Shown: piece after piece, positions 7,709-63,351 of the stretch
Layout of the letters: every line of letters begins with the position of its first letter
Position numbering within the stretch: position 1 is the stretch's first letter
From: Tetradesmus obliquus
Taxonomy: Eukaryota; Chlorophyta; Chlorophyceae; Sphaeropleales; Scenedesmaceae
DNA length: 64,000 nucleotides
NCBI GenBank assembly: GCA_030272155.1
Contig: CP126192.1
Coordinates: forward strand, 4,002,501-4,066,500
Direction: 5' to 3'
Program-made: the position numbers and the translations under genes
Notes under the pieces: model-generated
What the model saw: only the letters and a program-made list of their open reading frames with translations
Told to the model about the DNA's origin: nothing
Databases searched by the model: none

Positions 7709-10700
7709 TCACTGCCCGCCTAGCAAAATGACCACAATGCTGCAGCAGAACGGAGTGGTCGCCGCCAAGGAACAGCATGGCATGGCAAGCAAGCATGCAA
7801 GCACAGGGTATGATAAGGCATGCAAGCAACACTTACAGAGACCTGGCTGCAACACCACACTGCTGTTGAGGGCATCCCAGAAAGCACCTACTGCTGCTCT
7901 CACAGCCACTTGCTCCACCAGCTGGGGTACCCCAAGGTCACTTGACACAGCCCACGCTGCCCTGCGGCCTTTTTCAAAAGCATGCACTGCTGCAAGACAG
8001 ACCATGTCCCACACCAACCGATGTACAGCGTTATGAGGGGGGCACGCCAACCATATAGCTCGGCACGGCAGGACAGCACCTGCCGGCAACAAGTTGAACG
8101 TCCGTAGTTGACTTTCCACCTCACGCCGTACCGCCACAGCAACAGGACATGCCCAAAAATGATGCTCCACCCCAGGCCCTGCAGCAGAACATGCTGCACA
8201 CGCAGCAGTAGCCTGCATACGTTGAGCAGTAGGGAATGCATCCAAAGCCAAGCGCCACGCCGCTTCCTTGTACATGTTAGCCACCCGCACCTGCCACCAA
8301 CGAGACAACACCGACTGCACTGCAGGCAGGCTGACTGCCACCGGCAGGGCATCCAGGGCTCTAATCCGAGTAACAAAGGCAGCATGGCGGGGCGCAATGG
8401 CATCAAGCGCAGCAAGACGTTGTAGCTTCGTGGCATCAGCAACTTGCAGATCAGCCAAACGTATAAAACCGCCTGCCCCTGGCCGTTGCCAACCCAAATC
8501 AGCACACAACTGTTCGCGCGCAATCAAAATGTCCACAGGAGAAACAGAGGATAATTGTGCAACGCTCATACCAGCAGCTTGGGCAGCCGCCAGGTGCGCG
8601 CGTGCTGCAGTGTGCCACACAGACGGCACAAACGACAGCAGATGCTGCACATGCTGCCGAGCCTGCTGCCGATCACCATACTGTGGTCTACTGCGCAGCC
8701 ACGGGCCCCATATCTCGCGCTCATAGCGGAGCGCTGAACAGAAAGCCCTGGCAAGGCACAGACACGTTCAAGTTCTGACAACAGCAACACTGCCTGACCC
8801 AAACACTGTAGCTTGGGGAGCTCCAGCAGGCCACATGGCACGACCTGTTCCAAGCCCACCTCCACCTGACGCTGCTGATCAAACCATTGCCATGACTGTA
8901 CCACTGTAAACAGAGGATTGGCCCACAGCGGAGCCTCCCAGCACAAACCATCCACGTCTAAAGGCTGGTTGCCCACATGACGCAACGGCGGCAGGGCACG
9001 CAAACCCATCGCCAAAACACGCAAAGGCGATGGCAAGCAGGCATCCGCAGGGGCCGCAGGGAAGATATGATGACGGGCACACAATGCAAGGCCCCAAGGG
9101 CTACCAGCAGCAGCGCGTGTGAAACAATCCACAGCGCTAGCCCACTGTGCCCACAATTCCCGTCCCACTGCCACCCACGGTGCAGCACCGCCCTGCAGGA
9201 GGGGGATTGCTTCACAAGCCCAGCGAGACAACAAGTGATGATGAACGGGCAGAAGGCCAAACCCACCACACCTAGGATGTGCAGCCATGCAGTCCCCAGG
9301 GATGCCAGGGGCACGCCTAAGATCATCCTCAGGCCCCAAGCCAGCATCAACAAGCGCTGCCGTCCACCTGCTGAGCTGTTCCGACACAGTCGCTGGCAAC
9401 TGCCCGGCAAACTGCGCTGCATATAGGATGGTGGACAGAGCATATGCATTAGCTGCAAAAGCCCTGCCAAACGCAGACAGCTTGGAGATGCGACTGATAT
9501 TTTGCATGCGGCGACGCACTGTCTCCAGCCTGCCCTCCCAATCCACGTTGCTATTGCCACGTTCACCAAAAAACACTCCCAGAGATTTGGCGCGCTGCAC
9601 AACCTGCATGCCGCCCACATTCTGCGTTGCCCCACCCGGCGCAGCTGCCGCTGCTGGCTGCCGCCCAACATGCAGCAAACGCGACTTGGATGGGTTCAAC
9701 CGCTGCCCTGACGCTTTGGCAAAATCCTCCATGCAGCCAAGGAAAGTGGGGACATTCGCAAGCGACAGCAGAAACACCTCGGCATCATCCGCATACTGTG
9801 CTGCTACAAGCTGCTGACTAGCTGCAACAATACCAATGCCGCGCTGCTTCAGGAAGCACAACAACGCCTGCCCAACGAACAAATACAGCAGAGGTGCAAG
9901 GGGGCAGCCCTGACGCACCCCAGCCTCACACTTGTAGAAGGGGCTGCAAAAACCATTGGCTGTGGCGCATGTGTATGTCGCCGTCAGCAGAACTTGCATC
10001 CAGCTGACAAAACCCTGCCCTACACCCAGTGCTTGGGCCACATCATACAACAATGAGCGATCCACAGTATCGTAGGCTTTTGCAAAATCAGTGAAAACAA
10101 CTACCGCCATCTGCCGCTGCTCATGCAGTAGAGCAGGTAGCATTTGCAGCAGCCTGATGCTATCGCCAATATGCCGATGCTGCAAAAATGCGGACTGCGC
10201 AGGGTGTATAACATCGCCTGCCTCTGCCAGCAGCCGGTTAGCAAGTAGCTTAGCTAAGATGCGGTAATCATAGTTGAGCAGCTGGATTGGACGATAGGCA
10301 GCAGGATCTGCCACCGCACCTCCCGGCTTCAGGACAGGCAGTATGACTCCATCCAGAAAACCGGCCGGGACGCGCTGAACCGCGCCAATTGCTGAGTATA
10401 GCGCTGCTAGCACCGGCGCCATCTGCTGCTTATAGTACCTATAGAACTCTCCAGGCACCCCATCCAGGCCCGGCGACTTGCCCGGGGCGGTGCGGGAGAT
10501 GGCGACACCGACTTCCTCAACTGCCACCGCCGCTGCCCCAAGCCTGCCAGCTGCTGCAGCATCAAGGCGCTGGGAGTGCTGCGCTACTGCCTGCAGGACA
10601 GCCTGCCGTTCTGCCTGCTGCACCTGTGGCGCCACAGTGAGCGCTGCATAGCGCTGGCCGATGATACGCGACAGGCTGACACCATCTCGCACTAGGTGCC

Positions 10701-11473
10701 CAGTGCCAGGGGCGCGCAGACCTGCGATGTATGTAGCGCCCTTGGGGGGTTTGAGTACACGGGACATGGCCGGGCCTGGGCGTTCACCTTGGTGCACCCA
10801 CTGCTGGCGGCGGCGGGCACGCTGCACCGCCTCTTCCTGCTGCTGTAGCTGCGCCAGATGGCTCCTAGCTGACACCACAGACTGCAAGGCAGCAGGCACC
10901 GCTGCGTCAGCGCATGACTCCAGCTGGTTGTACGCAGTTAGCACTGCTGCCGCCGCTGCTGTACGCTGCGCTGCAGGTGCACGCGCTGCCTGGGCTTGCC
11001 GCGCAGCACGGTTTAATTCTGCAAACTTGGCTGCCAACCGGCGCTTGAAAGCCGGCCACCACTGATCGACAAGGGTCGCGGCGTCCGCAGGGGGCTGCTG
11101 GGATGCGAGCCACGTGCGCATCGCATCTCTGCACTCTGCGTCGGCCTGGAAGGACATCCGAAGCCGCTGCAGGCCAGGCCCCAGCACGCCTGGCCCACGC
11201 GGCTGCAACTGCACAACCACAGCGCTGTGATCACTGACTGCTGCACACCGATCCTCATGACGGCAGGCAACCACCTGCGGCATCAACGCATCTGAGCAGT
11301 AAATTCTGTCGATGCGGGACGCTGCGGTAGCGCGGACGTAAGTGAACGCCCTGCGCACCGGGTGCTTGGCACGCCACACATCGCACATGCGCGGCAAATG
11401 CTGTGCCCAAGCAGCTGCAGGTACGGCATCTCGCGTCTGCATGCCACGTTCCTGCTGCTGCTGCTGGTGGTGC

Positions 11474-11508
<35 letters not shown>

Positions 11509-12111
11509 TTGTGCAGCAGCAAGCTGTCTACGATCCATGATTCTACTGGGAACAAAGTTGAAATCACCAAGAACAATTAGTCCATGAGCTGGCTGGTGTC
11601 GCTGCCGCTGGTAAAGGTCTCGTAGAGGGCCACTGATGATGGCAGCATTAGCCACATGATCGTCAGCATGCATGTATACACCAACGACACGCAGCTGCTG
11701 TCCTGCCCACACCAGTGGTACCTGCAGCAGCCTGCCCTGAGCTGGCCCATCAACGGCTGCATGTACAGTGTCCGGCACCTGTACTACTCCACTGTCAACG
11801 AGACTGCGGCGAATGAGCACTGCAACACCTGCTCTGGTGCGGCCCTGCCCTGAAAGCCCCATACACCAGAACGACTTCCAGCCACGAAGCTGCAGGCGGC
11901 GCTGCTGCGCTGGCCTGTCACTGAAACTAACATGCGTATCAACAACTGCTACAACGTCTAGGCCCAACTGCTGCCACTGATCACTGAGCTGCGGCAGCTT
12001 GGCTGCAAGGCCATTGACGTTGTGCGAGCCCACCCTAAGGCTGGGAATTCTGGGCATTAAGACGTGGTTGGTGCCGCGCCCTCCAGCTGCTCGCGTGCTG
12101 CTGGCTGGCAA
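7709..12111 (-). pseudogene. LINE ORF2: endonuclease plus reverse transcriptase, frameshifted
   Basis: The N-terminal apurinic-type endonuclease (EEP fold) is visible from RVGSHNVNGLAAKL through VVAVVDTH, LIVLGDFNFVP and the SRIDRIYCS segment, with SDHSAVVV near its end. A Gln/His tract interrupts the domain after GDFN. The reverse transcriptase follows with AYRPIQLLNYDYRILAKLLA, FTDFAKAYDTVDR, GVRQGCPLAPLL and the catalytic AQYADDAEVFL. A C-terminal zinc-knuckle (zf-RVT-like, CAACSAAGPGVEHHFWACP) lies in another frame. Compared with the copy at 43346-44877, one base is missing in the stretch near 8716-8726, which shifts the frame after about residue 1130. The remaining C-terminus (8650-7709) reads on in the second frame. 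After GAFWDAL the C-terminus differs completely from the other copies. This copy is unlikely to be autonomous now. Confidence 0.9.
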
Positions 12112-12274
12112 GGCAGGGGTGAGCCGTCAGGCCCATGGTGGCTGGAGGCATCTGAGGATGACTGTCGGAGCTGCTGGGCAGGCGCCTCCACCTCAGAGGC
12201 TTTGGACGCAACTGCACTGATCTTACGCGGCGGGGAGCTGTGCCGCCTGGTGGAGCGAGGCCGCTGAGGCCCAC

Positions 12275-14276: not shown

Positions 14277-14306
14277 AAAAATAACACTTTTGCGTTCATA
14301 TACAGG
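14277..14306 (+). promoter_or_regulatory. tRNA upstream element (permuted tRNA-Ser)
   Basis: Contains AATAACACTTTTGCG followed by CATATA. Nearly the same string occurs upstream of both tRNA-Tyr genes and, on the minus strand, upstream of tRNA-Lys. The A/T box sits about 30 bases before the likely start of the tRNA precursor. It probably acts as an external Pol III TATA-type promoter. Confidence 0.7.
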
Positions 14307-14342
14307 TAACAAACTATTGGCTGCATCGAGCACCGGCACGCT

Positions 14343-14484
14343 ATCAATTGGGAGTTCCCGCGCAGGTTCAAATCCTGCTCACCGCGTGTGATTCTACCGT
14401 GTGAGTACATTGAATCTGGCTGCTGATGCAGCCTGTACGCCTATATGGCGGTGATGGCCGAGCGGTTAAGGCGATTGACTAGAA
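14343..14484 (+). tRNA. Circularly permuted tRNA-Ser (AGA): 3' half precedes 5' half
   Basis: The 3' half is 14343-14386 and the 5' half is 14448-14484, separated by 61 bases. When the halves are joined in the anticodon loop, every stem closes. The acceptor GCGGTGA (14448-14454) pairs with TCACCGC (14379-14385), with G73 at 14386. The anticodon stem ATTGA (14474-14478) pairs with TCAAT (14344-14348). The T stem is GCAGG/CCTGC, and the class II variable arm GGG-AGTT-CCC is 14350-14359. The anticodon AGA is 14481-14483. The leader GCACCGG (14330-14336) pairs with the trailer CTGGTGC (14487-14493), giving a helix next to the anticodon stem as expected for splicing-endonuclease recognition. A T4 Pol III terminator lies at 14495-14498. 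The internal promoter boxes are in reversed order (B box 14365-14375, A box from 14455). Known permuted tRNAs (Cyanidioschyzon, prasinophytes, nucleomorphs) mature through a circular intermediate. Confidence 0.93.
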
Positions 14485-14494
14485 ACCTGGTGCA

Positions 14495-14498
14495 TTTT
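14495..14498 (+). terminator. Pol III terminator of permuted tRNA-Ser
   Basis: A run of four T directly after the trailer helix, at the position expected for Pol III termination. Confidence 0.6.
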
Positions 14499-38205: not shown

Positions 38206-39387
38206 GAAAAAAAAGAAGAAGAGGGGTTACACGGTGTGCACAGGCAACTACGTTGCAACGAACACCCGAAAATCTGGAACGTCGCAGATGACTCAGCAAA
38301 ACAGGCTGTCACTCAAGGAGACTCACCCCAAAAAGTCTCGCGGTGTGTGTAACTTGACATATGGCCTTGCAGGCAAAGCCGTCAGTCACAGCACACGCAG
38401 TATTGATGCTAAACAAAGGCAGGACTAGTGTAAACAGTGTTAGTGACAGCAAGCTGCACTTTATGCAGTGCAGCGGGCGGGCTGAACCCACAGAACAACA
38501 CCCACCAAGCAGCAACACAGCCTGGCAGGCGGCGGTCTGAGGCGACAAACTGGGGAGAGAGAGCAGAGGACAAACCAGCTGCTGCAAGGGCCGCACGACT
38601 ACAATTTGCAGCAGCGATACGGTAACTCACAGCTTCTGCAAAGCAAGACGGCTAGCTCTGGCATGTCAGAAGCTCACAGAGAGCGCACGTACACACAGTA
38701 AGAAGAAGGCCATCACCGCCGCACCACACACAAACCATTGCCACGCAACACAGTATGCCAGGCAACAAAAGGCTGTTGTGTGAGCAGCCGATTTCTATAC
38801 CGTGACGGCACCCTAGCCGTAGCAGCAAAGTCCGCAAGGGCATCCCAGAAAGCACCTACTGCTGCTCTCACAGCCACTTGCTCCACCAGCTGGGGTACCC
38901 CAAGGTCACTTGACACAGCCCACGCTGCCCTGCGGCCTTTTTCAAAAGCATGCACTGCTGCAAGACAGACCATGTCCCACACCAACCGATGTACAGCGTT
39001 ATGAGGGGGGCACGCCAACCATATAGCTCGGCACGGCAGGACAGCACCTGCCGGCAACAAGTTGAACGCCCGTAGTTGACTTTCCACCTCACGCCGTACC
39101 GCCACAGCAACAGGACATGCCCAAAAATGATGCTCCACCCCAGGCCCTGCAGCAGAACATGCTGCACACGCAGCAGTAGCCTGCATACGTTGAGCAGTAG
39201 GGAATGCATCCAAAGCCAAGCGCCACGCCGCTTCCTTGTACATGTTAGCCACCCGCACCTGCCACCAACGAGACAACACCGACTGCACTGCAGGCAGGCT
39301 GACTGCCACCGGCAGGGCATCCAGGGCTCTAATCCGAGTAACAAAGGCAGCATGGCGGGGCGCAATGGCATCAAGCGCAGCAAGACG
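38206..39387 (-). mobile_element. LINE fragment with ORF2 C-terminus, subfamily B (left arm, 2)
   Basis: Includes the complete B-type 3' UTR (38206-38875) and the last roughly 170 codons of ORF2, with the zinc knuckle and the C-terminus ending in VVRR at 38713. It is truncated at 39387, where GTTACGAAAAAA follows. Confidence 0.85.
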
Positions 39388-40507: not shown

Positions 40508-40528
40508 TTGGAATGGCGGTTACGACAT

Positions 40529-40620
40529 CCCCTTGTAGCTCAGTTGGCAGAGCGGGAGACTGTAGTGGTTCCACTGCCAAAGGCATCTCTAGGTCACTGG
40601 TTCGAATCCGGTCGAGGGGA
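40529..40620 (+). tRNA. tRNA-Tyr (GTA) with 19-base intron, copy 1
   Basis: Acceptor CCCCTTG pairs with CGAGGGG, discriminator A at 40620. The D arm is standard, the anticodon stem GGAGA pairs with TCTCT, and the T stem ACTGG pairs with CCGGT. The anticodon GTA is 40562-40564. A canonical intron occupies 40566-40584, directly after position 37. A T4 terminator lies at 40626-40629. Confidence 0.95.
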
Positions 40621-40854
40621 AGCTGTTTTGTCTTGCCAGTCTTCATTTTGCCACTGCCAGCAGGCAGCTGCACGCTTCTACACTCTCTCCAGCCTATTTT
40701 CAGTGTCACAGGTTGCAAATCTCTCTATTGCACTGCTGTCCAGCATCATGGCATCATAGCATCATGCGAAGTTGCGAAGCAGTGTGTGGTGCAGCCCACC
40801 CACAGCGAGGTGTGATCTCCAGACGACAACATGCCACAGGGTACGCCATCTTGC

Positions 40855-41210: not shown

Positions 41211-41261
41211 GCAGCTGCCTGCTGGCAGTGGCAAAATGAAGACTGGCAAGACAAAACAACT

Positions 41262-41353
41262 TCCCCTCGACCGGATTCGAACCAGTGACCTAGAGATGCC
41301 TTTGGCAGTGGAACCACTACAGTCTCCCGCTCTGCCAACTGAGCTACAAGGGG
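41262..41353 (-). tRNA. tRNA-Tyr (GTA) with 19-base intron, copy 2
   Basis: Exact-looking reverse-complement copy of the gene at 40529-40620, including the intron and a T4 terminator (AAAA at 41253-41256 on the plus strand). It results from the inverted duplication. Confidence 0.95.
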
Positions 41354-41373
41354 ATGTCGTAACCGCCATTCCA

Positions 41374-42189: not shown

Positions 42190-43270
42190 CCGTGCCCCGC
42201 CTGATTGCTGATTTGCTGTTTTGGTGGTGGGATCCTGTCTCTTGGCGGAGCTAGCCGCTTTGAGGCAGGCCGGGGACTACGTGAGCCCTGGCAGCCACGC
42301 TGTTTTGTACGTTGTATGATGCTGTGTGTTTGCAGCACAGACGTTGGCAAGGGCTACCTTTAGGCTGGTGGTGCTGGTTAGTTGCATGTCTGTGTGTTGA
42401 CCGCTGCACACCTTTATATTCCTCTGATTGCCATGCAGTCTCCGTGTTGGGGCGGGCCGCCTGCACATCTGTGCCAGCGTGTTTGGGGCGTTTGGTGTGC
42501 CTGGGCAGCATGCCTGTTACTGCCTCTGCATCTCTTGTGAGCTTGGCTCGCACATGGTGTTTGCTGGGCCGCCTTTTGCGTGGTTCTTCTTGTTCTCACC
42601 AAAGGCTCTGCATGTTTTGGCCGCGTCTGTCTGTGCCTGTGCTGCATGCCTTGCCACTGCTTTTGGGGCCATGCCGTGTTTACACTGGCAGCCGAAGGTA
42701 GTGCATCATGTTTTGGCGCTGGCGCTGGCATTCTGCACAATAGTGCCTTGCCTTTGCTATTTGACCTGCCCGTTGGGTGGAAGCTTGTTTGGTCTGCCGA
42801 GTGGCTGCTGACAGGCCGCTGTGACATGCGGTTGTGTTTGTGTGCCTTTGGGCAGCTCTGCATTTTTCCAGCCATCTTTTCACTGCCCAAGCTGCGCTCC
42901 GCCCCAGGCTGAGCTGCGGCTTGGTGAGCTCAGCCCGCCCGCAATGCAGTTAGTGCATGGCGGCCCTGTGTTCTCTCTGCATTGCTTGCCGTCACTGACA
43001 CTGCTGGCAGCACTTTATGTTCCACTTCTCGTATGAGGATACATTTTCTGGGGGCGAACTGTGTGGAGTAAGGAAGGCGGCTGTGCTAGCATGGCCATAT
43101 GCCGAAACTTACACACGGGGGCCATTTCTCTGGGGTTGGGCCTCACATGAGTGACGGCCTGTGCTGAGCTTCCTGCAGTTTCCCTGTGTTTTCGGGTGTT
43201 CGTTGCAACGTAGTTGCCTGTGCACACCGTGTAACCCCTTTTCTTCTTCTTCTTTTTTCGTTTTTTCGTT
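42190..43270 (+). mobile_element. LINE 3'-UTR fragment, subfamily A (right arm, 1)
   Basis: Closely matches the reverse complement of 6511-7558 in copy 1. The match stops at 42190-42200 on the 5' side. The tail CTTCTTCTTTTTTCG lies near 43240-43260. Confidence 0.85.
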
Positions 43271-43345
43271 TCGGGTGTTCGTTGCAACGTAGTTGCCTGT
43301 GCACACCGTGTAACCCCTCTTCTTCTTCTTCTTTTTTCGTTTTTC
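43271..43345 (+). mobile_element. LINE terminal fragment (right arm, 2)
   Basis: Only the last ~50 bases of the family plus tail, similar in extent to the minimal insertion at 14182-14230. Confidence 0.8.
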
Positions 43346-44877
43346 CTAGGTGTGGTGGGTTTGGCCTTCTGCCCGTTCATCATCACTTGTTGTCTCGCTG
43401 GGCTTGTGAAGCAATCCCCCTCCTGCAGGGCGGTGCTGCACCGTGGGTGGCAGTGGGACGGGAATTGTGGGCACAGTGGGCTAGCGCTGTGGATTGTTTC
43501 ACACGCGCTGCTGCTGGTAGCCCTTGGGGCCTTGCATTGTGTGCCCGTCATCATATCTTCCCTGCGGCCCCTGCGGATGCCTGCTTGCCATCGCCTTTGC
43601 GTGTTTTGGCGATGGGTTTGCGTGCCCTGCCGCCGTTGCGTCATGTGGGCAACCAGCCTTTAGACGTGGATGGTTTGTGCTGGGAGGCTCCGCTGTGGGC
43701 CAATCCTCTGTTTACAGTGGTACAGTCATGGCAATGGTTTGATCAGCAGCGTCAGGTGGAGGTGGGCTTGGAACAGGTCGTGCCATGTGGCCTGCTGGAG
43801 CTCCCCAAGCTACAGTGTTTGGGTCAGGCAGTGTTGCTGTTGTCAGAACTTGAACGTGTCTGTGCCTTGCCAGGGCTTTCTGTTCAGCGCTCCGCTTATG
43901 CGCGCGAGATATGGGGCCCGTGGCTGCGCAGTAGACCACAGTATGGTGATCGGCAGCAGGCTCGGCAGCATGTGCAGCATCTGCTGTCGTTTGTGCCGTC
44001 TGTGTGGCATACTGCAGCACGCGCGCACCTGGCGGCTGCCCAAGCTGCTGGTATGAGCGTTGCACAATTATCCTCTGTTTCTCCTGTGGACATTTTGATT
44101 GCGCGCGAACAGTTGTGTGCTGATTTGGGTTGGCAGCGGCCAGGGGCAGGCGGTTTTATACGTTTGGCTGATCTGCAGGTTGCTGATGCCACGAAGCTAC
44201 AACGTCTTGCTGCGCTTGATGCCATTGCGCCCCGCCATGCTGCCTTTGTTACTCGGATTAGAGCCCTGGATGCCCTGCCGGTGGCAGTCAGCCTGCCTGC
44301 AGTGCAGTCGGTGTTGTCTCGTTGGTGGCAGGTGCGGGTGGCTAACATGTACAAGGAAGCGGCGTGGCGCTTGGCTTTGGATGCATTCCCTACTGCTCAA
44401 CGTATGCAGGCTACTGCTGCGTGTGCAGCATGTTCTGCTGCAGGGCCTGGGGTGGAGCATCATTTTTGGGCATGTCCTGTTGCTGTGGCGGTACGGCGTG
44501 AGGTGGAAAGTCAACTACGGGCGTTCAACTTGTTGCCGGCAGGTGCTGTCCTGCCGTGCCGAGCTATATGGTTGGCGTGCCCCCCTCATAACGCTGTACA
44601 TCGGTTGGTGTGGGACATGGTCTGTCTTGCAGCAGTGCATGCTTTTGAAAAAGGCCGCAGGGCAGCGTGGGCTGTGTCAAGTGACCTTGGGGTACCCCAG
44701 CTGGTGGAGCAAGTGGCTGTGAGAGCAGCAGTAGGTGCTTTCTGGGATGCCCTTGCGGACTTTGCTGCTACGGCTAGGGTGCCGTCACGGTATAGAAATC
44801 GGCTGCTCACACAACAGCCTTTTGTTGCCTGGCATACTGTGTTGCGTGGCAATGGTTTGTGTGTGGTGCGGCGGTGA
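43346..44877 (+). pseudogene. LINE ORF2 C-terminal fragment (uninterrupted)
   Basis: About 510 codons remain open from CGGFGLLPVHHHLLSRW to the stop after VVRR. The fragment begins downstream of the reverse transcriptase catalytic motif. It includes the zinc knuckle CAACSAAGPGVEHHFWACP. It shows the frame that copy 1 lost: here VQRSAYAREIWGPWL reads straight through. It cannot encode an active enzyme because the endonuclease and the catalytic YADD are missing. Confidence 0.85.
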
Positions 44878-57457: not shown

Positions 57458-58119
57458 TTAGGCCTTGCCATCTTCTCGGTGCTCGCTCGGCACCCAGCGC
57501 TGCAGCAGCACCTCCCGCACTGTCAGCTGCTGCATGCACTCCAAGCTGCCTAGCTCCAGACCTTGTGGAATCACCACGTACAGCAGCAGCAGCTGCTTCA
57601 GCACCTGGCGTGCCAGCCGCTGCATGATGTGCGCATCCAGCCAAGTCAACCGGGTGGAGCTGGCAGCATCGCACACCTGCAGCACAAACTGCCGCTGCTC
57701 TCCACTACTCCCACTGCCGCTGCAATCATTCACCGCCCGCTGCTGCTGCTGCTGGTGGTCCTGCTGCCCTGCTGCATCAGATGCCTCCCCTGCTGCTACC
57801 GTGACAGCAGCAGCCTCTCCAACAGCAGCAGCAGGCCGCCCCACCATCACCATCACCAAGAAGTCCGAGTGTGCCCACTCCGGATGCAGCTTGTACAGTG
57901 CATAGTCAGCGCCATACAGCAGCCCAGGCAGCGGCAGCCAGCCCTTGCTGCGGAAGTGCTTGTACGCTGCGTAGCGCGACACAAACTGCAGCGCACCACC
58001 TGGGGCAGCGCTGCAGCACCAGCGCCATAGCTCCGCTGGCGCCAGCGGCCCTTGCACCTGCTGCTGCTGCTGCTGCTGCTGCTGTTCTTGAGCTTGTGAC
58101 TGCTTCTCCCGCGCTACAA

Positions 58120-58150
<31 letters not shown>

Positions 58151-58888
58151 CTGGCCTTCCTGCGCTAAGTCTTGCTGCGTGACAAACACACTGCAGCAGT
58201 TGAGGACATGTGCCAGGAAGAATGCTTCCTGGCAGGACAGCTGCACCAGCTGCAGCTGCTGCAGCTCTTCTTCGTTCACGGGCAGGCCGCACTCTGGGTC
58301 TGAATGCGATCCAGCAGGGCAACCATTGCCAGCCTCGCCGTCAACTGCCAAGCCCCCCTCATCAGCATCTGCTGTGTCTGCTGCTGCTGCCCCTGGATCC
58401 TCATCTGGTTGCACATCCAGCTCCTGCGCTGCCTCTGTAGCAGCAGCAGCAGCAGCTGCTGCTTCTGCTTGTTGTCCTGAGGTTGCTGCTGGTGCTGTGA
58501 TGCCTGCTGTCACCACATAGCTAGGTGTGCGCCGTGCCCTGCGCTGCTTCCTAGCCAGCTGCTGCATCTGATGCTGCTCAAACTGCAGCAGCACCTCCTG
58601 GGAAGCCCTGTTCACACCAGCAGCAGCTGCAGCAGCAGCCAACTGAGCCGTGCTGCTGCTGTTGCTGCTGCTGTGATCAACGCCGTCATTATCACCAGTG
58701 GCAGCTGCATTGGGCACGGGTCTGCCAACGCAGCAGCGGTCCAGCAGCCACGCAACAGCCGGCTCTGCTGCTAGCACGATGGTGCTCTGCAGTGCTGCTG
58801 CCACCAGCTGCTGCTGGCCCAGGGTGTGCAGCATGTCTGCTGCTGTCAGGTACTCGCCAGGCACTAGCTGGCGCTTGAACTTCGGCAT
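57458..58888 (-). CDS. SEN2: tRNA-splicing endonuclease catalytic subunit SEN2
   Basis: A single-exon frame of 476 residues, the only intronless conserved gene here. The N-terminal part (residues 1-60) and LSCQEAFFLAHVLNCCSVF (about 220-240) match SEN2-type subunits. The catalytic fold is YAAYKHFRSKGWLPLPGLLYGADYALY..PEWAHSDFLV, followed by the closing region HIMQRLARQVLKQLLLLYVV. The predicted triad is Tyr in LYGADY, His in WAHSDF and Lys in QVLKQL. SEN2 cuts the 5' splice site of precursor tRNAs in the heterotetramer with SEN15, SEN34 and SEN54. Two Gln tracts (near 58108-58155 and 58055-58085) and Ala-rich linkers separate the N-terminal and catalytic parts. A (CAG)n tract also sits just upstream of the start, in the presumed 5' UTR. 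It is relevant to the intron-bearing tRNA-Tyr and permuted tRNA-Ser in this window, although linkage is likely accidental. Confidence 0.9.
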
Positions 58889-58889
58889 C

Positions 58890-58953
<64 letters not shown>

Positions 58954-59329
58954 TGTGCCGGGCTGCTTACGCTCTGCTGTGCTGTGTTGAGCCCTGTGCT
59001 TGCGTGTCACACTGGCCAACCACTGCTACTGCTGCTGTAAGGCAAGTAGCTGGGAAGCAGTGCACAAGGCAGCCGCTTGCTTAGCCCCTTTTGCGTGCTT
59101 TGAACTGCGGCGACAGGAGATGGCAGCACAGGTAGCAGCACACGGAGCAGCAGCTGGAAAGCAAGCACAATTTCCTGTCTTCCCTTCCCCACCTTGCCCT
59201 GCTGAGAATGCCAGGCGATTGCATCGCTTGAACTAGAAGCAGCTTGCAACAGACACGTGTCTGCATGGCAGCCACCTGCTGTCACACAGGCCCAGCAGCT
59301 ATGCATTTTTTAGGTGCGTAATCATGCAT

Positions 59330-63179: not shown

Positions 63180-63252
63180 CGCCCGATGTGGGGCTCGAAC
63201 CCACGACCACAAGGTTAAGAGCCTTGCGCTCTACCGACTGAGCTAACCGGGC
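63180..63252 (-). tRNA. tRNA-Lys (CTT)
   Basis: The cloverleaf is complete: acceptor GCCCGGT with ATCGGGC, D stem GCTC/GAGC, anticodon stem CAAGG/CCTTG, loop CTCTTAA with anticodon CTT, T stem GTGGG/CCCAC and discriminator G. No intron. Confidence 0.97.
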
Positions 63253-63323: not shown

Positions 63324-63351
63324 CATTTATGAGCGCAAAAGTGTTATTTTT
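63324..63351 (-). promoter_or_regulatory. tRNA upstream element (tRNA-Lys)
   Basis: On the minus strand: AAAAATAACACTTTTGCG followed by CATAAAT. It is the same element as at the other three tRNA genes, but here it lies about 72 bases from the tRNA, so a leader of some 45 bases is implied. Confidence 0.65.

Follow-up and report, generated by a model that had tools for sequence, protein, structure and literature searches.

Organization of the locus

The window analyzed here, a stretch of 64,000 nucleotides, lies on contig C2 in a genome of 104.66 Mb and 17 contigs. At 14330-14498 on its plus strand, the window letters contain, in order, a leader, the 3′ half of a tRNA gene, a spacer, the 5′ half, a trailer, and TTTT. 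When checked against these letters, the coordinates and the reversed order of the halves in the initial annotation were exact to the base, and the four-T terminator that it had named was present. The features are as follows:

14282..14301 (+): upstream element TAACACTTTTGCGTTCATAT, a putative Pol III promoter element; 28 bases separate its end from the leader helix
14330..14342 (+): leader, paired with the trailer through 14330-14336; G14340 is intron position -3
14343..14386 (+): 3′ half of tRNA-Ser(AGA), positions 38-73 (A38 to G73), without an encoded CCA
14362-14378 (+): T arm of the 3′ half, with the B box
14387..14447 (+): intervening sequence of 61 bases, proposed to be excised from the acceptor end
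14448..14484 (+): 5′ half of tRNA-Ser(AGA), positions 1-37, carrying the A box
14481-14483 (+): anticodon AGA, within the 5′ half
14485..14494 (+): trailer, paired with the leader through 14487-14493
14495..14498 (+): TTTT, a candidate Pol III terminator

Neither ARAGORN nor Rfam at gathering thresholds called a tRNA at 14330-14498, while three other tRNAs were found in the window; this silence is the expected behavior of these programs because the gene is permuted. A collinear intron-containing tRNA gene was ruled out from the window letters and ARAGORN, as the 5′ half does not precede the 3′ half.

Elsewhere in the window, two tRNA-Tyr(GTA) genes in inverted orientation, each interrupted by a 19-base intron, lie at 40528-40621 (+) and 41261-41354 (-), with the upstream element at 1 and 2 edits, and a tRNA-Lys(CTT) gene lies at 63180-63252 (-), with a weaker element (3 mismatches) at 63327-63346. 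An ORF resembling those of retrotransposons, in which endonuclease and reverse transcriptase domains were detected, occupies 8566-12126 (-); similar, truncated-looking ORF pieces were noticed by eye at 38713-39387 (-) and 43168-44877 (+).

The joined halves form a class II tRNA-Ser

On folding, the 81-mer produced by joining the two halves gave a complete class II cloverleaf, its acceptor, T, and D stems having seven, five, and three pairs, together with an anticodon stem and the variable arm GGG-AGTT-CCC, bearing out the acceptor-stem, anticodon-stem, T-stem, and variable-arm pairings that had been claimed for it. The anticodon loop, CTAGAAA, presents the anticodon AGA. Eukaryotic tRNA-Ser, a class II tRNA, is marked by a long variable arm, a Ser anticodon, G73, and the lack of an encoded CCA, and the locus displayed all of these features.

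Four permuted paralogues

At least four loci in the genome carry a permuted Ser(AGA) gene, a pair on C2 and one each on C8 and C10, and in all four the 3′ half lies upstream of the 5′ half on one strand. The second C2 copy (C2:3991250-3991418) is identical to the window locus at 169 of 169 bases, and the diverged C8 and C10 copies lie on the minus strands at C8:3202299-3202443 and C10:767505-767668. The spacers measured 61 bases at both C2 loci (identical in sequence), 38 bases at C8, and 56 bases at C10, and a run of 4-6 T residues follows the trailer at every locus. When the two C2 copies were aligned with 1.5 kb of flank on either side, the similarity ended about 53 bases upstream and 8 bases downstream, so that the shared block comprises the upstream element and the transcription unit.

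The mature joined forms of C2 and C8 both folded as cloverleaves. The C10 form has a D-stem mismatch and the discriminator A73, and its free minimum was not a cloverleaf. In the T stems of C8 and C10, A49-T65 replaces G49-C65, a change on both sides of the pair, and the acceptor stem is kept. The C8 and C10 copies may have lost some or all of their activity, C10 being the likelier case. Downstream of the C10 permuted gene (L077 / L004), the terminator is followed by a second, degenerate 5′ half (GCGGTGATGGC...), which resembles one mentioned for O. lucimarinus Cys(GCA) in PMC3978253.

Junction, leader–trailer helix, and processing signals

The junction lies at 37/38 in all three distinct permuted loci, and in each of them A38 is 13 bases from the start of the helix. 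At C2, the leader/trailer helix GCACCGG/CTGGTGC comprises 7 bp with one G-T, exactly as the initial annotation had it, and the break that it placed in the anticodon loop beside a helix is the 37/38 junction, adjoining this helix and a C32:G-3 pair. The helices at C2, C8, and C10 measured 7, 7, and 6 bp, with shuffle P values of 0.024, 0.10, and 0.20, each modest evidence when taken alone. The outer GCACC/GGTGC pairs are kept across the loci although the spacers and flanks differ, and the C8 helix has a T.G in place of the G.T at one pair.

Position 32 with position -3 is the usual anticodon-intron pair. C32:G-3 was present in all three distinct permuted loci and also in the introns of this genome's Tyr and Lys(TTT) genes; of three intron-bearing tRNAs compared, one (Thr-like, L092) was without the pair. 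Anticodon-intron pairs are recognized by the yeast endonuclease (PMC3978253). Of an hBH-type motif at the junction, the loci keep the outer helix and C32:G-3, but the BHB central helix was imperfect, forming two of four pairs at C2 and three of four at both C8 and C10. With the tRNA pairs enforced, the precursors of C2, C8, and C10 folded at -63.1, -44.9, and -47.0 kcal/mol, compared with free minima of -67.9, -45.0, and -48.6 kcal/mol (gaps of 4.8, 0.1, and 1.6 kcal/mol); the free minimum of the C2 precursor differs from the tRNA fold.

Two tRNA-intron endonuclease genes were found in the genome. A Sen2-like gene (window 57458-58966, minus strand; PF01974, E 8.9e-15), which matches PDB Sen2 chains, is 43 kb away from the permuted gene. 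The second, a Sen34-like gene on C6, had an EndA-like chain as its best match, with Sen34 chains next.

The upstream element marks a subset of tRNA genes

At up to 3 mismatches, the upstream element occurred three times in the window and never in 100 shuffles. Across the genome, TAACACTTTTGCGTTTATAT at up to 2 mismatches was found in six places, compared with none in the reversed control, and all six precede tRNA genes, namely the two C2 permuted genes, the window Tyr, Arg(TCT), Cys, and Ser(CGA). At up to 6 edits, in a count without a shuffle control, 14 of 69 distinct upstream regions carried an element and 55 did not. Of the 14, two belong to permuted loci, of which four are known here, and 12 to other sequences; among these 12, Arg(CCT) (L069) and a Thr(GGT)-like repeat (L074) matched only at the 6-edit limit. 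Thus, the element marks some tRNA genes and is not a general tRNA promoter, because only 14 of the 69 upstream regions carry one.

The element was not found in the C8 and C10 upstream regions at up to 6 edits; at C10, TTTTTTGCG was noticed by eye at about the same distance. An AT-rich or TATA-like region upstream and a T stretch accompany many, not all, of the known permuted members described; both are present at the C2 copies, and only the T stretch at C8 and C10. The 28-base distance at the C2 genes would fit a TATA-like element. The earlier proposal that the gene is transcribed from the upstream element gained support, in that all six close matches precede tRNA genes, though two of the four permuted loci are without one.

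Search for a collinear Ser(AGA) gene

The initial annotation held that a collinear Ser(AGA) gene with identical halves elsewhere, together with a lack of reads joining 14484 to 14343, would make the locus a rearranged pseudogene. Such a gene was not found in searches by similarity and by patterns, which are less thorough than a full tRNA scan. No collinear Ser(AGA) was found when the genome was queried with the 81-base mature sequence, the best collinear match being Ser(CGA) on C16 at 88%. A Ser A-box pattern at up to 3 mismatches matched 11 places (the four permuted Ser(AGA), five Ser(GCT), one Ser(CGA), and one without a tRNA); this search was not exhaustive, as the collinear Ser(TGA) gene on C16 escapes the pattern. 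The joined anticodon arm TTGACTAGAAATCAA had no exact match in the genome and two matches at one mismatch, equal to the two in the reversed control. The Sen2-like ORF in this window uses TCT and TCC for 4 of its 48 Ser codons, so a tRNA reading them would be needed.

These results bear on the leading alternative, namely that the loci are rearranged tRNA pseudogenes whose halves were shuffled by duplication, which are silent, and whose function is served by an unseen collinear gene. The D-stem mismatch, the mature form that misfolds at its free minimum, and the second degenerate 5′ half downstream at C10 would be in keeping with it, as would the absence of the upstream element at C8 and C10 and the reverse-transcriptase ORF nearby in the window. 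However, the 81-base query, the Ser A-box pattern, and the joined-arm pattern all failed to reveal a collinear gene, and the C2 copies are intact and identical and carry an element found only before tRNA genes. We therefore consider this alternative improbable.

Ser(AGA) was the sole permuted isotype in the set examined. Ser(GCT) was collinear at five loci, and Leu (TAG, CAG, AAG, and TAA) at 12 of 14 A-box places, the other two being without a tRNA. A Met(CAT) pattern matched 162 places, compared with 18 in the reversed control; the six with 0-1 mismatch were checked and all were collinear genes, which we take to be of the initiator type, and the remaining 156 lay outside the survey. Also outside it were Pro, His, Glu, Gly(GCC, CCC), Ile(AAT), Val(CAC, TAC), Arg(ACG, CCG), Leu(CAA), and elongator Met. 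In an RF00005 family search, 63 of 1714 candidates were scored, giving 62 matches. Two scans of a viral-contig collection with tRNA-half patterns gave no match.

A permuted covariance model recovers the loci

We built a covariance model from 24 other tRNAs of the genome that had been artificially permuted, keeping Ser(AGA) out of the training set, and ran it on 38 sources (9, 9, and 20), including all four permuted loci. The window locus scored 52.2 bits (E 1.3e-14 in 86,459 bases), whereas the next-best match inside the window reached 26.0 bits; the second C2, C8, and C10 loci scored 52.2, 55.6, and 49.0 bits. By the score of this held-out model, the window locus is more than a chance match. 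The best match in the 38 sources outside these loci was a real confounder, a tandem pair of Lys(TTT) and Gln(TTG) genes that reached 50.0 bits, and all remaining matches were at or below 29.0 bits. The two genes of this pair lie six bases apart (L022 / L059) and mimic a permuted tRNA in the model.

The score of this tandem pair, as high as that of a true permuted locus, lends something to the notion that the permuted loci are remnants of tandem tRNA pairs. Yet ARAGORN finds no tRNA gene at the four loci, which implies that the outer halves are missing; each locus forms its acceptor, anticodon, and T stems within a single tRNA; and the order of halves is retained at four loci although their spacers differ. 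A remnant of this kind is thus highly improbable as the present state of the locus, and a tandem pair may instead be the origin of the permuted gene. An assembly artefact or inversion is scarcely credible, as nothing was found in its favor and the four loci lie on three contigs with the same half order and diverged flanks; like the pseudogene and tandem-pair explanations, it was considered and rejected on the evidence against it.

Proposed expression of the permuted gene

Taken together, the evidence from sequence favors, with a probability of roughly 0.87, the reading that the C2 locus is a working type II permuted nuclear gene for tRNA-Ser(AGA), belonging to a set of at least four paralogues and probably the sole source of this tRNA; that it works is inferred from conservation. 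Pol III would initiate about 28 bases downstream of the element and terminate at the T run, and the transcript would fold with its leader paired to its trailer. A splicing endonuclease of the Sen2/Sen34 type could then cut after A37 and before A38, and tRNA ligase would join A37 to A38, giving a circle from which RNase P and tRNase Z would remove the 61-base spacer. CCA would be added to the trimmed tRNA, and A34 would presumably be converted to inosine, which decodes UCU, UCC, and UCA.

If the gene is the sole source, the permutation would be essential rather than redundant. The four paralogues reveal which parts of the leader, trailer, and spacer have been kept, and the upstream element would offer a direct handle on the transcription of a gene whose A and B boxes stand in reverse order. 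A tRNA scan may report an isotype as missing where its gene is merely reordered.

Host lineage and known permuted tRNA genes

Two exon pieces of a D1 protease gene matched PDB 1fc6 at 89 of 89 and 53 of 54 residues. Tetradesmus obliquus, which we take to be the current name of Scenedesmus obliquus, belongs to the Sphaeropleales, Chlorophyceae, in the NCBI taxonomy. The 1fc6 structure is from Scenedesmus obliquus (table in PMC2868010). The identity of 89 of 89 residues points to Tetradesmus obliquus or a close relative as the host, a single protein being compatible with either, and supports the initial description, made without knowledge of the source, of a green alga, Chlorophyceae-like.

Auxenochlorella belongs to the Trebouxiophyceae. 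Strain UTEX 250-A likewise has reversed tRNA halves in a core green algal nuclear genome (PMC12636532, 2025), and its omission leaves the initial annotation's list of known hosts (Cyanidioschyzon, some prasinophytes, and nucleomorphs) incomplete. A 2014 review (PMC3978253) counted 34 permuted tRNA genes from six algae and one archaeon, with none in C. reinhardtii in that tally. According to its table, the prasinophyte Micromonas pusilla has a type II Ser(AGA) with the same anticodon and 37/38 junction and a spacer of 64 bp compared with 61 here, a likeness to the C2 gene by table description; the Bigelowiella natans nucleomorph has a type II Ser(AGA) with the same anticodon and junction and a spacer of 5 bp (PMC3978253). 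The permuted tRNAs of Cyanidioschyzon merolae, for which a circular RNA intermediate has been reported, share the reversed halves, an upstream TATA-like sequence, and a downstream T stretch, but this species is a red alga and its junctions lie at 20/21, 37/38, 50/51, and 59/60 (PMC3978253).

The C2 locus is a genuine type II permuted tRNA gene of a known kind, and its occurrence in Chlorophyceae is apparently unreported before, no earlier report of a permuted tRNA from this class having been found in a literature search that mostly excluded subscription papers. Permuted tRNA genes would thereby extend to the class of Chlamydomonas. Because Micromonas pusilla and the Bigelowiella nucleomorph have this tRNA permuted at an identical site, one might speculate, doubtful as it is, that permuted Ser(AGA) is an old, vertically inherited green algal trait, and that a sole source could persist through a strong Pol III element freeing a subset of tRNAs from A/B-box order.

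Other tRNA-related sequences

Twelve near-identical tRNA-Thr(GGT)-like sequences (L051-L055, L058, L070-L072, and L074-L076) are perhaps tRNA-derived short repeats, and a tRNA-like sequence in L073 bears TTA as its anticodon and would decode TAA, a stop codon. A conserved structured RNA of 72-74 bases lies directly upstream of all five Ser(GCT) genes found (L086, L087, L092, L094, and L095) and had no Rfam match at E up to 1. Two-sided changes occur at 7 of its 17 predicted pairs, all from one split between two identical sequences and the other three. This RNA and Ser(GCT) possibly form a two-gene Pol III transcript.
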